Notes under the pieces: generated by a model
Databases searched by the model: none
What the model saw: only the letters and a program-made list of their open reading frames with translations
Told to the model about the DNA's origin: nothing
In this document: positions 1 to 32,653 of the stretch, piece by piece
Numbering within the stretch: the first letter of the stretch is position 1
Layout: each line of letters begins with the position of its first letter
From: Candidatus Gastranaerophilales bacterium
Lineage (GTDB): Bacteria > Cyanobacteriota > Vampirovibrionia > Gastranaerophilales > Gastranaerophilaceae
Reading direction: 5' to 3'
NCBI GenBank assembly: GCA_944325115.1
Contig: CALUYX010000008.1
Coordinates: 1 to 34,339 of the forward strand
Length of the DNA: 34,339 nt
Made by a program: the position numbers and the translations under genes

Positions 1-266
1 GCCAAGTGCGCGCGAGCGTGAGGACAGTGCCACAGAAAAGTAGAATGCTCAGCCTTATGGGGCATAAAGAGCGATTGTGCAACGGCGGGGTAAGAGCCCA
101 CCGCCGAAATCGTGAGGTTTCGGGCATGGTAAACCCCAATCGGATGCAAGTTTGAATTTGCAAGAAGAGTGCCTTTTCTCGTTTTGTTTTAACAAAAATT
201 GCATAAAAAAACGCATTAGACAGATGATTATCTGAAAAACAGAATCCGGCTTATTGCAGGCTTTCC
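1..266 (+). ncRNA. rnpB: RNase P RNA, 3' portion (5' end outside window)
   Basis: Catalytic RNA of ribonuclease P, which removes 5' leaders from pre-tRNAs. The conserved bacterial type A blocks appear in the right order: AGTGCCACAGAAA at about 26-38, the GGCGGGGTAAGAGCCCACCGC block at about 84-104, the GGTAAACCCC...GCAAG block at 128-150, and the 3' core ACAGAATCCGGCTTAT at 239-254, which forms P4 with a 5' strand not present here. The 5' part of the molecule (P1-P9, including the GAGGAAAGTCCGGGC box) lies before base 1. A long hairpin follows directly at 268-322. The 3' end is placed by analogy with other RNase P RNAs, accurate to perhaps 10 bases. Confidence 0.93.
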
Positions 267-267
267 A

Positions 268-322
268 CCAAAACCCCAAAATACTTACACTATTTGTTTA
301 GTGTTGTATTTTGGGGTTTTGG
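268..322 (+). terminator. Long perfect hairpin downstream of rnpB
   Basis: A 17-bp perfect inverted repeat (268-284 with 306-322), closed by an inner ACACT/AGTGT stem. It directly follows rnpB and could end or process the transcript, but no clean T-run follows, so it is not a textbook intrinsic terminator. Most of its right side is repeated 214 bases downstream. Confidence 0.5.
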
Positions 323-12627: not shown

Positions 12628-13602
12628 TTAAGCACTTAGTGCCAATTCTTCATTTTCTTCTTGTGCTATTTCTGTTGCGTTGTTATCTTCTTTGCTAATT
12701 TCCTGATTTATGTTTCCTGCTCCGTTATCTTCAAAGTCCTCGGGTATTGTGTTTGATACGGTATTACCTATAGCTGATGCTACAGTGTCTACACCTCCGC
12801 CCATTGTGCCGTTTACGGTAAGTGTTGCTGCAAGTCCTCCTACGGTGCGAAGACCTGTTTTTGCACCTTCTTCGGCAACATATTTTACTGTGCTTTGTGA
12901 AAGTACTTTTGCTAAAATGTTGCTGCCCATATTTTTTACGGAAGATTCCACGGCTTTGTATCCGCAAGTTCTTGCTATCGTGTTACTTGCAGCACCCGCC
13001 AGTCCTCCCGTTATTGGCGAGAAAGCTCCGTTTATAAAACCTGTTATTGTGTCATAACATAAATCTTTTGCTGTATAATCTTTTCCGCCTATTGCTGCTT
13101 CGCCGGATTTGATTCCGACTTTTAATGCAGAGCCAGCTACCGCGGCAACCCCTATTATGCCTATCGGGGTTGTGGCAACTATGGGTGCAAGAATTCCTAC
13201 TGCAATACCGGAGAGTATATTGGCTGTAATATTTACTGCCATGTCTTGTCCGTCTTTATAGGCATTAAGTGCTTCTTGTGCTTCTTCTTTACTTATTTCT
13301 CCGGCTTCATATTTATTGATAGCTTCTTCTGCTTTATTTGAACTTGCGCCTATATTAAAAAGATTTTTAAATCCGTCCCATATGTTGCCTATGAGTCCTT
13401 GTTCTTCTCTTGTTTTATTGAGTTCATCTCTTAAATCAAGCTCTTGGGCTACTGTTTCTTTTTCTTGAATTTCAATAGTGTCTTGATTTCCTAAATCCGT
13501 ATTGTTGCTGAAAAGTTCTTCTTCCTCTTGTAGTGTTGAAACAGTGCCAATATTTTCACTGCAATTGACTTTATCAATCGTATTGATTGAATTAATACTC
13601 AT
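12628..13602 (-). CDS. Hypothetical hydrophobic, glycine-rich protein, paralogue of the 2591 gene
   Basis: Unrecognised 324-residue protein. An acidic N-terminal third (MSINSINTIDK..., Glu-rich) leads into QGLIGNIWDGFKNLFNIGASSN. A helical EEA-rich linker follows, then a long Gly/Ala/Val/Ile region (about 125-290) with several potential membrane-inserting helices (ILSGIAVGILAPIVATTPIG, GVAAVAGSALKVGI), and finally an acidic tail (EEDNNATEIAQEENEEL-like). The layout is that of a soluble-ended protein that can enter membranes, reminiscent in outline only of pore-forming translocators. The GAGAGAG stretch before the ATG is a usable ribosome binding site. It shares order and motifs with the 2591 gene. 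No Sec signal peptide. Confidence 0.8.
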   Translation of the reverse strand: MSINSINTIDKVNCSENIGTVSTLQEEEELFSNNTDLGNQDTIEIQEKETVAQELDLRDELNKTREEQGLIGNIWDGFKNLFNIGASSNKAEEAINKYEAGEISKEEAQEALNAYKDGQDMAVNITANILSGIAVGILAPIVATTPIGIIGVAAVAGSALKVGIKSGEAAIGGKDYTAKDLCYDTITGFINGAFSPITGGLAGAASNTIARTCGYKAVESSVKNMGSNILAKVLSQSTVKYVAEEGAKTGLRTVGGLAATLTVNGTMGGGVDTVASAIGNTVSNTIPEDFEDNGAGNINQEISKEDNNATEIAQEENEELALSA

Positions 13603-13689: not shown

Positions 13690-13718
13690 ATAAAAAAAAG
13701 CCGTCCTAAAAGGCGGCT
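13690..13718 (-). terminator. Minus-strand intrinsic terminator with no upstream gene
   Basis: AGCCG-T-CC (13699-13706) pairs with GG-CGGCT (13712-13718). On the minus strand eight T residues follow. It points away from the hydrolase gene and lies upstream of the 12628 gene, so it can only end a short transcript arising in this gap. Confidence 0.75.
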
Positions 13719-13803
13719 ACTAGACTTGGGGAGGAGGTTTTGAGTAGGACTTATGTCCTTATGTTATTCTTTACGACGTGTATTTTAAAAACTTTAAACA
13801 TAT
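13690..13803 (-). ncRNA. Candidate small RNA with C-rich CCUCCUCCCC segment
   Basis: No protein gene explains a strong minus-strand intrinsic terminator (13690-13718). Upstream of it on that strand lie, in order, a candidate promoter (13810-13837), a small hairpin AGGAC-ATAA-GTCCT (13746-13759), a single-stranded-looking ACCTCCTCCCC (13728-13738), then the terminator stem. Hairpin, C-rich seed, then terminator is the layout of several regulatory RNAs that pair with Shine-Dalgarno sequences. Length would be about 115 nt. The alternative is that GGGGAGGAGG is a plus-strand ribosome binding site for a TTG start at 13740. Confidence 0.4.
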
Positions 13804-13809
13804 CATCCA

Positions 13810-13837
13810 TTTGTATTAATTTTCAAAAAAAGTTCAA
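13810..13837 (-). promoter_or_regulatory. Candidate promoter of the small RNA
   Basis: On the minus strand, TTGAAC (13837-13832), a 16-base spacer, then TACAAA (13815-13810). Start would be near 13803. It overlaps the likely -35 region of the divergent hydrolase gene. Confidence 0.35.
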
Positions 13838-13868
13838 TATTTATGCTCGTTTTGCTAAAATATTCAGT

Positions 13869-14642
13869 ATGAAAAAGTTTATTTCTCTCTTTTTAATAAT
13901 GATTTTTACCTTTGCTTCTTTAAGTGCGATTGCTGCACCAAAAAAGAAAGCTAAAAAACCAAAAATTCGTACAAAAGTTGAAATAGAGGCAAAAGACGGT
14001 TTCTTATTGGAAGGCGATTTGTATTTTGCACCTCAAAAGAAACCGCCCCGTCCGCTTGTTGTATTGTTACATTCTTTTGGCGGCAAGGCTTCTGATTGGG
14101 GGACTTTGCCCGAGTCCTTAAGGCTTAAAAACTATAATGTCTTAACCATTGACTTAAGAGGTCATGGTAAGAGTGTATATACAAAGAATTTTAAATTCAA
14201 ATCAAGAATGAACTTCACAAAGGATGATTGGGTGAAGTATCCTGTTGATGTTGTTTGTGCAATTGATTTTATAAGGAAAAATTATCCTAACATTGATTCA
14301 AGTGAAATATATATAGTAGGCGCTGATATTGGTGCAAACTCCGCAGTGCTGGCTTCTTCGGTTATGAGAATCAAACCTAAAAAAATGGTTTTGATTTCTC
14401 CTTATGTTTCATTTAAAAATCTTGATATAGCGCTCACCGTGCCAAGATTGACAACCGTTCCGATGATGATTATGGCGTCAAAAGCAGATAAATATTCGTA
14501 TTCTCAGACGGATATTATTTCAAGGTTAGTGCATTCAAAAATGACTCTTAAGCTCTATGAGCAAGGCGGTTCCGGAATTTTGCTATTAAAGAGAAATCCG
14601 TCTTCTTACAATGAAATAATCAACTACATTTCAGGCAAATAG
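13869..14642 (+). CDS. Secreted alpha/beta-hydrolase-like protein lacking the catalytic triad
   Basis: A 257-residue alpha/beta-hydrolase fold protein exported by a Sec signal peptide (residues 1-23, ending SAIAA), then a Lys-rich linker (KKKAKKPK). Fold markers are VVLLHSFGG (oxyanion loop, 64-72), DLRGHGKS (95-102) and the nucleophile elbow IVGADIGAN (149-157). At the elbow the expected Ser is Asp (D153). Where the catalytic His is expected (a GxGHG-type motif) the sequence is GGSGILLL, with no His. It is therefore probably a non-catalytic or altered relative. Start: the ATG at 13869 gives a clean signal peptide and has TAAAAT at 13856-13861. A longer frame from TTG at 13740 with a strong upstream GGAGG is possible but would bury the signal peptide. 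Confidence 0.85.
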   Translation: MKKFISLFLIMIFTFASLSAIAAPKKKAKKPKIRTKVEIEAKDGFLLEGDLYFAPQKKPPRPLVVLLHSFGGKASDWGTLPESLRLKNYNVLTIDLRGHGKSVYTKNFKFKSRMNFTKDDWVKYPVDVVCAIDFIRKNYPNIDSSEIYIVGADIGANSAVLASSVMRIKPKKMVLISPYVSFKNLDIALTVPRLTTVPMMIMASKADKYSYSQTDIISRLVHSKMTLKLYEQGGSGILLLKRNPSSYNEIINYISGK

Positions 14643-14699: not shown

Positions 14700-15569
14700 A
14701 TGGCAGGAAATTTAAAAAGTAAAGTTGATATAAAAGAACAGGGCGGCCTAAGAGTAGTTAAAGCCCCTAAAACTAAGCCATATAGTGACATTGACCTGAA
14801 CAACTGGAAAATGTATTCTCACATAAAAACAGGCACACTGTGGGAATTTGCCTCAAGAGAAAAGTCAAACGGACATAGTTATGATTACCATGGCAACTAT
14901 ATCCCACAAATTGCAACACAGCTTTTTGAGCGCTTTACAAAGAAAAACGATGTCGTGCTTGATTTGTTCTTCGGCTCAGGTACATCAGGCATTGAAGCTC
15001 TTAATATGGGCAGAAGATGTATAGGTGTTGAGCTTAAAGAAGATATGGTCAATTATGTTTCAAAGAAATTTTCAAAACGTGAATTAGTATCTAAAATGAA
15101 CATAATTTGCGCTGACAGTGCTTCAGAGGCTGCAAAAGAAAAAGTTGAAGCCCGTCTTGAGATTATGGGTAAAAAATCCGCTCAATTCCTTGTTTTGCAC
15201 CCGCCATATGATGATATTATAAAATTTTCAGACAGAAAAGAAGACCTTTCTAACTGTGCAACAACAGAAGAATTTTATGAGCTGTTTAAAAAAGTTGCAA
15301 AAAACGGTTATGATTTGCTTGAAAAAGGCAGATTTGCAGCGCTCATAATAGGTGATAAGTATGCAAACTCACGCCATATAAATCTAAGTTTTGAATGCCA
15401 AAGACGTATGGAAGAACTTGGTTTTATAACAAAAGCGGTAATTGTAAAAAATATCACGGGAAATGAAAGAGCAAAAGGAAAAACCGCCAACCTATGGCGC
15501 TACAGAGCGCTTGCGGGCGGTTTTTACATATTTGAACATGAATATATTATTCTGTTCCAAAAGCCTTAA
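14700..15569 (+). CDS. Orphan DNA methyltransferase (N4/N6 amino-methylase type)
   Basis: Putative SAM-dependent DNA amino-methyltransferase, 289 aa. Motif I is DLFFGSGTSGIEAL (88-101), with the SAM-ribose acidic residue E111 in GVEL. Motif IV is HPPY (167-170) in place of the usual (D/N/S)PPY. The N-terminal HGNYIPQIATQL resembles the 'F.P.I...LI' segment before motif I in such enzymes. The order I then IV fits the alpha/gamma rather than the beta class. GGGGAG seven bases before the ATG at 14700 decides the start over an ATG at 14664. No cognate endonuclease is adjacent. An RNA substrate cannot be excluded. Confidence 0.8.
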   Translation: MAGNLKSKVDIKEQGGLRVVKAPKTKPYSDIDLNNWKMYSHIKTGTLWEFASREKSNGHSYDYHGNYIPQIATQLFERFTKKNDVVLDLFFGSGTSGIEALNMGRRCIGVELKEDMVNYVSKKFSKRELVSKMNIICADSASEAAKEKVEARLEIMGKKSAQFLVLHPPYDDIIKFSDRKEDLSNCATTEEFYELFKKVAKNGYDLLEKGRFAALIIGDKYANSRHINLSFECQRRMEELGFITKAVIVKNITGNERAKGKTANLWRYRALAGGFYIFEHEYIILFQKP

Positions 15570-31583: not shown

Positions 31584-31789
31584 TAAATTATACTTTCGTA
31601 TGAAGAAATTCTAACTTTTCTATAATTCTAAATGGCTTGAAAACCTTGTATATTAACAATGTAGTCAATCACCAATTACATTTTAAAGATTGTAATTCAT
31701 CACAAAGACTAAGTATTGCTTGTAATCACTAAATTAGAATATCACGCTGATTTTCAATTGAGAGCAGCTTGATAGGAGTCAGACCTAAA
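31584..31789 (+). promoter_or_regulatory. Leader and promoter region of flagellin
   Basis: AT-rich region with no coding frame. It has a TATAAT at 31621-31626 without a clear -35, and a hairpin AATTACA/TGTAATT at about 31675-31698. I looked for sigma-28 (TAAA-N15-GCCGATAA) and sigma-54 (TGGCAC-N5-TTGC) flagellar promoters and found no convincing match. AGGAG lies at about 31774-31778, eleven bases before the flagellin ATG. Confidence 0.3.
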
Positions 31790-32653
31790 ATGGCTATTGT
31801 CGTAAATACAAATGTTGATTCAATAATGGTTCAAAGAAATTTGAACAGTGCAACTTCAAATTTATCAAAAGCTATTGAACGTTTGTCTACAGGTTCAAGG
31901 GTGAACCAAGCAGCAGATGACGCCGCAGGGCTGGTGATTGCAAAGGGTCTTGAAACTCAGCAAAGAGGTTCAGTCGTAGCTCAGAGTAATGCCCAAACGG
32001 GGGTTAACCTTCTGCAGACGGCCGAGGGTAATTTGGATGTTATTCAAGAGCACTTAATGAGAATACGTGACTTAACACTTCAGGCGATGAACGGCGGACG
32101 TTCCGCAGATGAGGTAAAAGCCATAGAAGATGAAGTTCTGCAAAGGGTTGCAGGTATAGACAGAGTCTCAAGAAGTGCTATGTTTAACGAGTTTCAGCTT
32201 TTCCCCGAAGCGCCATATGAACCTTTGGTGCTGCAAGTAGGTCCAAAATCCGAAAAATATACAAATACAATTGAAATTACAGATGTATTTATTGAGGCTA
32301 CTTTTTCGGTGCTAACAGGCAGAACAGGCGTAGCTGTAGGATTTTTGGACGATGCGGGTGAAATTATCCCCGATGAAGATTTCAGAGAATTTCTGGACCA
32401 GATTGACGTCGGTATAAAGGAAATCTCTACAAGAAGAGGTACTATAGGTGCTATTACAAACAGAATAAATGCAACAATAGATGCTCTTGATATACAAAAC
32501 GAAAATATTCTTGATGCAAAATCAAGAATTATGGATACCGATATAGGCGAAGAATCTTCGAATTTCGCTAAATATCAAATACTCCAGCAGGCGTCAGCCT
32601 CACTATTGGTACAGGCAAATCAACAACCTTCTATTGCCTTGTCAATAATATAA
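31790..32653 (+). CDS. Flagellin
   Basis: Structural subunit of the flagellar filament, exported by the flagellar type III system, 287 aa. The conserved N-terminal D0/D1 helix region (VNTNVDSIMVQRNLN, then IERLSTGSRVNQAADDAAGLVIA and LLQTAEGNLDVIQEHLMRIRDL) and C-terminal D1/D0 region (SRIMDTDIGEESSNFAKYQILQQA...LLVQANQQP) are complete. The exposed middle domain is short (about 130-215), so the filament surface is minimal. The ATG at 31790 starts the canonical MAIVVNTN; a TTG at 31769 is rejected. A strong terminator follows. No other flagellar gene is in the window. Confidence 0.96.
   Translation: MAIVVNTNVDSIMVQRNLNSATSNLSKAIERLSTGSRVNQAADDAAGLVIAKGLETQQRGSVVAQSNAQTGVNLLQTAEGNLDVIQEHLMRIRDLTLQAMNGGRSADEVKAIEDEVLQRVAGIDRVSRSAMFNEFQLFPEAPYEPLVLQVGPKSEKYTNTIEITDVFIEATFSVLTGRTGVAVGFLDDAGEIIPDEDFREFLDQIDVGIKEISTRRGTIGAITNRINATIDALDIQNENILDAKSRIMDTDIGEESSNFAKYQILQQASASLLVQANQQPSIALSII

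Follow-up and report, generated by a model that had tools for sequence, protein, structure and literature searches.

A conserved small RNA gene with a sigma-28-type promoter and an anti-Shine-Dalgarno-like core in Gastranaerophilales

We analysed a 34,339 nt stretch of a Candidatus Gastranaerophilales contig (CALUYX010000008.1; the whole stretch is called the window), in which an earlier note had proposed a regulatory small RNA on the minus strand. The minus-strand features on which that proposal was built, a promoter-like pair, a hairpin, a C-rich stretch and a terminator with eight T, are all present in the sequence, and the terminator indeed has no gene upstream of it on its own strand, the gene on that side being divergent (ATG 13869, plus strand). 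The locus comprises the following features:

13692–13764, minus strand: small RNA of ~73 nt, with the 5´ end placed from the -10 element and the 3´ end from the terminator
13746–13759, minus strand: 5´ hairpin AGGAC-AUAA-GUCCU (predicted fold)
13714–13738, minus strand: core ACCUCCUCCCCAAGUCUAGUAGCCG, nearly invariant; its anti-Shine-Dalgarno segment CCUCCUCCCC spans 13737-13728
13692–13718, minus strand: intrinsic terminator, a GCCG..CGGC stem followed by eight T
13770–13796, minus strand: sigma-28 (FliA) type promoter, with -35 TAAAGTTT at 13796-13789, an 11-nt spacer and -10 GTCGTAAA at 13777-13770
13869–14642, plus strand: divergent neighbour, an alpha/beta hydrolase starting at ATG 13869 (Pfam Hydrolase_4, E 3e-13), given for context
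12628–13602, minus strand: next gene downstream on the same strand, without a Pfam family; a homologue lies downstream in only 3 copies of the RNA gene

The C-rich stretch, ACCTCCTCCCC, can be read at 13738-13728 of the minus strand, and the terminator stem, AGCCGCC..GGACGGCT, at 13718-13699, directly before the T-run. The folding z-score is -2.5 for the window copy and as low as -6.6 for other copies. Elsewhere in the window, a bacterial RNase P class A RNA occupies positions 1-268 (plus strand), cut at the 5´ end of the window.

Among 58 relatives, represented like the other genomes by draft assemblies of mostly uncultured organisms, blastn found the element in 54, several of which carry two or three copies close together. 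Given these matches and the single occurrence of CCTCCTCCCC in the window with at most one mismatch, we take the element to be beyond chance. A pattern scan of about 85,000 species with the core only found it exactly in at least 115 stretches; the titles among the listed matches were Gastranaerophilales, Melainabacteria or uncultured (cyano)bacterium, plus one Clostridia, probably a mislabelled bin. Matches to a covariance model of the family were obtained in 296 of 382 genomes of the class. The RNA family covers almost the entire Gastranaerophilales sample, and other orders of the class hold members that have diverged further. For two families outside the order (f9 and f15), the matches are clearly real, with the diverged core AACCUCCUCCCCAARU and, in several cases, sigma-28-like sequence upstream; the model matches read in two further families (f10 and f12) are terminators or chance. 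No convincing match of the family's model (R1) was obtained in photosynthetic cyanobacteria, the core was carried by none of the viral contigs, and Rfam 15 gave no match at the gathering cut-off for the window copy or in 12 loci with diverse copies.

Alignment of 45 diverse copies resolved three modules, the hairpin, the core and the terminator, for which counts were made on 136 unique copies. The core reads ACCUCCUCCCC(A/G)AGUCU(A/G)GU(A/U)GCCG in RNA letters, or CCTCCTCCCC(A/G)AGTCT(A/G)GT(A/T)GCCG in DNA letters, includes the stretch CCCAAGUC, and exists in seven versions, two of which account for 122 of the 136 copies. The C-rich segment, whose conservation in relatives the earlier note had proposed as a check, is thus part of the most conserved stretch of the RNA, and this stretch continues into the terminator stem, which starts with GCCG and finishes with CGGC and a T-run in the aligned copies. 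An extra single base within the core in 4 copies argues against a reading frame. The 5´ hairpin is predicted in 134 of the 136 copies, with 50 distinct arm pairs, and its stems are variable in sequence and covarying. Canonical pairs make up 94% of the six loop-proximal pairs, versus 58% with reassigned arms, though these counts lean towards structure since the arms were defined by folding each sequence; the fairer measure, the folding z-score of the 5´ region against shuffled sequence, has a mean of -5.4. The core itself is mostly unpaired in predicted ensembles.

The earlier note had assigned this RNA to a TTGAAC-16-TACAAA promoter (13837-13810) and expected a transcript of ~115 nt. That pair is kept only inside the genus and is absent outside it, and we rejected it as a sigma-70 promoter: even in the genus, only the -35 half is well preserved and the -10 half is variable. 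The consensus shared upstream of the 136 unique copies is TAAAGTTT-N11/12-GCCGATAA, with a spacer of N11 in 89 and N12 in 45 and a mean promoter score of 19.5, compared with 14.1 for shuffled upstream DNA. TAAAGTTT followed after 11 or 12 bases by GCCGATAA is the textbook sigma-28 promoter. The window copy, TAAAGTTT-TTAAAATACAC-GTCGTAAA, is the only zero-mismatch match to the search pattern in the window. Since the shared promoter ends 27-47 nt ahead of the core, transcription would start at the hairpin, which shortens the predicted transcript to about 73 nt. Just upstream of the -35 element, at 13800-13807 of the minus strand and in many copies of one family (f1), we also noted a conserved block, GATGATAT, a possible activator site.

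FliA scoring over the curated cut-off (TIGR02479) was found in 52 of the 58 relatives and, in other orders, in 14 of 14 model-positive genomes of families f9, f10, f12 and f15, so that the TAAAGTTT-N11-GCCGATAA promoter occurs in genomes that encode its putative sigma factor. Three model-positive genomes of f8 and f13 were without FliA; the model matches there are weak and probably due to chance. Several other-order genomes with FliA had no detectable RNA. In these genomes an HD-GYP response regulator and a repeated family of MGLAASQ-type proteins are also preceded by this promoter consensus, and the plain sigma-28 pattern is only modestly enriched over a reversed control. The MGLAASQ-type proteins, which have no Pfam match and lie repeatedly downstream of sigma-28-like promoters (L173, G000:C3:18173; L166, G021:C6; L150, G045:C1), are candidate members of the FliA regulon. 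Taken together, comparison of the sequences gives strong support for the RNA gene, for the class of its promoter and for its conservation, with transcription and the start site as predictions.

Other observations concern sigma-28-like sequences elsewhere. Upstream of the flagellin gene in the window (31790-32653) there is no recognisable GCCGATAA -10 element, and TAAAGATT is present at 31684-31691. At two loci (L151, G040:C2:425134; L160, G045:C1:782409) a perfect or near-perfect sigma-28 promoter is followed by ACCAAAACCTCCTCCCCTTTAAGTCTTGCCG and a CGGC terminator with no 5´ hairpin; these look like a second small-RNA-like unit, a putative paralogue of the family with its core elements re-spaced. 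At another locus (L156, G021:C4:200885), TTTTCCTCCTTTTCCCCTACTACTACTAACTAACC and a terminator come after a perfect sigma-28 promoter; this may be a further anti-Shine-Dalgarno RNA of the regulon.

We consider it likely (probability roughly 0.75) that the small RNA acts in trans as an antisense RNA under FliA control, covering ribosome binding sites, with its transcription, its pairing to these sites and its targets as the inferred parts. RNA polymerase carrying sigma-28 would transcribe the stand-alone ~73-nt gene, the RNA starting at the 5´ hairpin and stopping at the intrinsic terminator, with the unpaired CCUCCUCCCCAAGUCU core exposed between the two. The CCUCCUCCCC segment is complementary to strong Shine-Dalgarno sequences, and the AAGUCU that follows extends the ideal target to GACUUGGGGAGGAGGU; the core would pair with ribosome binding regions of target mRNAs and block translation in trans. 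Hfq was found in 0 of the 58 genomes, with positive controls, and the RNA would therefore have to act without it. The part of the earlier note that called the core an anti-Shine-Dalgarno seed fits its near invariance and its mostly unpaired state in predicted folds, while repression of any target is suggested by the parallel with NfeR1 (PMC10746234) and Yfr1 (PMC6974561), both of which repress through a motif that base-pairs with translation initiation regions. The small RNA would then be a post-transcriptional arm of the FliA regulon and, were the fliA mRNA a target, would form a negative feedback loop.

The fliA mRNA is the best single target candidate. Leaders of fliA were fetched from 75 genomes. 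In the window's genus, 14 of 15 genomes have GGACUUGGG (GGACTTGGG) shortly before the start codon, a stretch of nine bases complementary to CCCAAGUCU of the core, and TTGGG is found in 10 of 21 fliA leaders of the family (one per genus) versus 7 of 528 other leaders. The duplex energies for fliA were better than background, with p values of 0.001 in the family and 0.055 in other families and no signal in other orders; 69 of 500 shuffled cores equalled the fliA duplex result of the true core. In other families and orders the match fades even though their core retains CCUCCUCCCCAARU. Since the motif was noticed in the leaders first and tested second, making this a weak, post hoc test, we regard fliA feedback as doubtful, including its broadest form, in which a class-wide, Hfq-independent, FliA-driven RNA shuts off translation of fliA and of export and flagellar mRNAs with strong Shine-Dalgarno sequences. 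If it were true, a sigma factor would limit its own synthesis via an anti-Shine-Dalgarno RNA, and genomes that have lost the classical flagellar FlhA would still retain this feedback RNA.

We also searched for targets beyond fliA. The targets suggested in the earlier note were not supported as a group by duplex calculations for two of them, galE (-8.2) being about average and the methylase at 14700 (-14.8) above average and not outstanding. The leaders of the flgE-like and FtsW-like genes of this genome have good complementarity to the core. When duplexes were ranked for 551 leaders drawn from flagellar and fliA regions, among which export-gene leaders were over-sampled, a fliP-like family came out best. 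A search for GGGGAGG before ATG in 12 genomes gave no pattern conserved beyond the genus; the matches included repeated elements, the FtsW-like gene in this genus and one sequence that we take to be 23S rRNA.

The regulon served by the RNA may lie outside the classical flagellum. FlhA over the curated cut-off was absent from 17 of 57 members of the order, several of them nearly complete, and nearly all of these 17 retain FliA and most retain the RNA. The RNA thus follows FliA and not the classical flagellum, in line with a survey in which most of nine Gastranaerophilales genomes were without a full flagellar gene set (PMC4040986). These data point, tentatively, to a sigma-28-type RNA that uses the same antisense mechanism in the service of a non-flagellar export or envelope programme, a possibility compatible with the preferred reading and differing from it only in the regulon. 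However, another FlhA-like protein, scoring about 650-710 bits and hence below the FlhA cut-off, was found in 17 of the 17 genomes and in most of the remaining ones (for example G000:C16:4658-6694, G020:C11:299006-301039 and equivalents), indicating that some export apparatus remains there and may be flagellar in origin.

A different role for the core is also conceivable. The invariant core is longer than an anti-Shine-Dalgarno seed needs, making another constraint, such as protein binding or more targets, likely. The extension of this stretch into the terminator stem, beyond the usual seed length, together with the difficulty of finding conserved targets, would suit a sigma-28-dependent RNA in which the core acts as a protein-binding site or a decoy instead of an antisense seed, for example by titrating a protein that binds RNA or functions in translation, or by mimicking the 3´ end of 16S rRNA. 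We think this unlikely given that CCUCCUCCCC, as exposed in the RNA, matches anti-Shine-Dalgarno seeds of a class that has been tested (PMC10746234, PMC3927594) and that the core is complementary to fliA leaders within the genus.

The neighbours of the RNA gene bear on whether it acts in cis. Copies stand alone beside unrelated genes, some in tandem, and the neighbouring genes fall into 139 clusters in both orientations, the largest of which, in a clustering with part of the neighbours annotated, contain a phosphoribosyl-pyrophosphate-synthase-like protein and the hydrolase. Within the window's genus, the divergent hydrolase is the usual neighbour (a cluster of 22 copies). A downstream gene was called for 125 copies, co-oriented in 49 and opposed in 76. 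As the neighbours vary in kind and orientation and tandem copies exist, we regard the RNA gene as independent and non-coding. A cis-acting leader or attenuator of the gene at 13602 might be suspected in the window, where this same-strand gene starts about 90 nt past the terminator and GUCCUA/UAGGAC pairing between hairpin and terminator is possible, but the neighbour diversity largely refutes it and the alternative pairing is not conserved since the stems vary, leaving this reading very improbable. We dismiss the reading that the earlier note had named as fatal to its own, with GGGGAGGAGG as the ribosome binding site of a plus-strand protein frame from TTG 13740: the frame is open over 13740-14642 in the window but in 13 of 13 relatives from the genus it contains stops or does not run in frame with the hydrolase, and the core is kept at loci without the hydrolase gene.

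The small RNA has the architecture of Yfr1, the seed of the cuckoo RNAs and the promoter class of the flagellar small RNAs of E. coli and Campylobacter. Yfr1, a cyanobacterial sRNA of the same phylum with a similar size of 54-69 nt (PMC2190773), pairs with ribosome-binding regions in Nostoc (PMC6974561). Both RNAs have a 5´ hairpin and a 3´ terminator hairpin and, in the unpaired linker between them, an ultraconserved motif rich in C and U that includes CUCCUC. The motif differs, however, being ACUCCUCACAC in Yfr1 and ACCUCCUCCCC(A/G)AGUCU in the present family, and ACTCCTCACAC was found in none of the loci examined. Yfr1 sits near guaB and trxA in 25-27 of 31 genomes (PMC2190773). The present family has a sigma-28 promoter and varied neighbours, the latter annotated in part. 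Direct homology to Yfr1 was rejected, the model matches in photosynthetic cyanobacteria looking like chance terminators.

In the alpha-r14 RNAs (NfeR1, SmelA075; PMC10746234, PMC3927594), as in the present family, the anti-Shine-Dalgarno motif CCUCCUCCC is ultraconserved and the stems vary strongly; in the cuckoo RNAs the motif is repeated in the unpaired regions of several hairpins, whereas here there is one, in the linker. The CcsR RNAs, four in a row (PMC10253847), are, like the cuckoo RNAs, from alphaproteobacteria and hence another phylum; they share a transcript with a DUF1127 protein, made from an RpoHI/HII promoter, in contrast to the FliA promoter here. Transcription by the flagellar sigma factor, deduced here from the promoter, is shared with UhpU, MotR, FliX and FlgO of E. 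coli (PMC10578931) and CJnc170/FlmR of Campylobacter (PMC11187230). The E. coli RNAs are UTR-derived, bind Hfq and are conserved among some Enterobacteriaceae (PMC10578931), whereas the present RNA is a stand-alone gene of Hfq-less bacteria with order-to-class conservation and an anti-Shine-Dalgarno core. Given the different Yfr1 motif, the absence of the cuckoo loop arrangement and the Rfam scores, we place the RNA outside these families and, from its sequence features, rate it as a new RNA family. In the literature searched we found no description of regulatory RNAs from this non-photosynthetic sister group of the cyanobacteria, and as judged from sequence the gene is real and previously undescribed.

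These observations define an ancient RNA of gut-dwelling, non-photosynthetic cyanobacteria, one whose promoter can be read, whose seed hardly varies and whose partner sigma factor can be tested. They suggest that both the photosynthetic and the non-photosynthetic branch of the cyanobacteria evolved or retained RNAs in which an anti-ribosome-binding linker lies between two hairpins, and that small RNAs under sigma-28 control occur more widely than in the enterobacteria and Campylobacter from which they are described. The RNA may also serve as a marker of FliA activity in uncultured gut bacteria.
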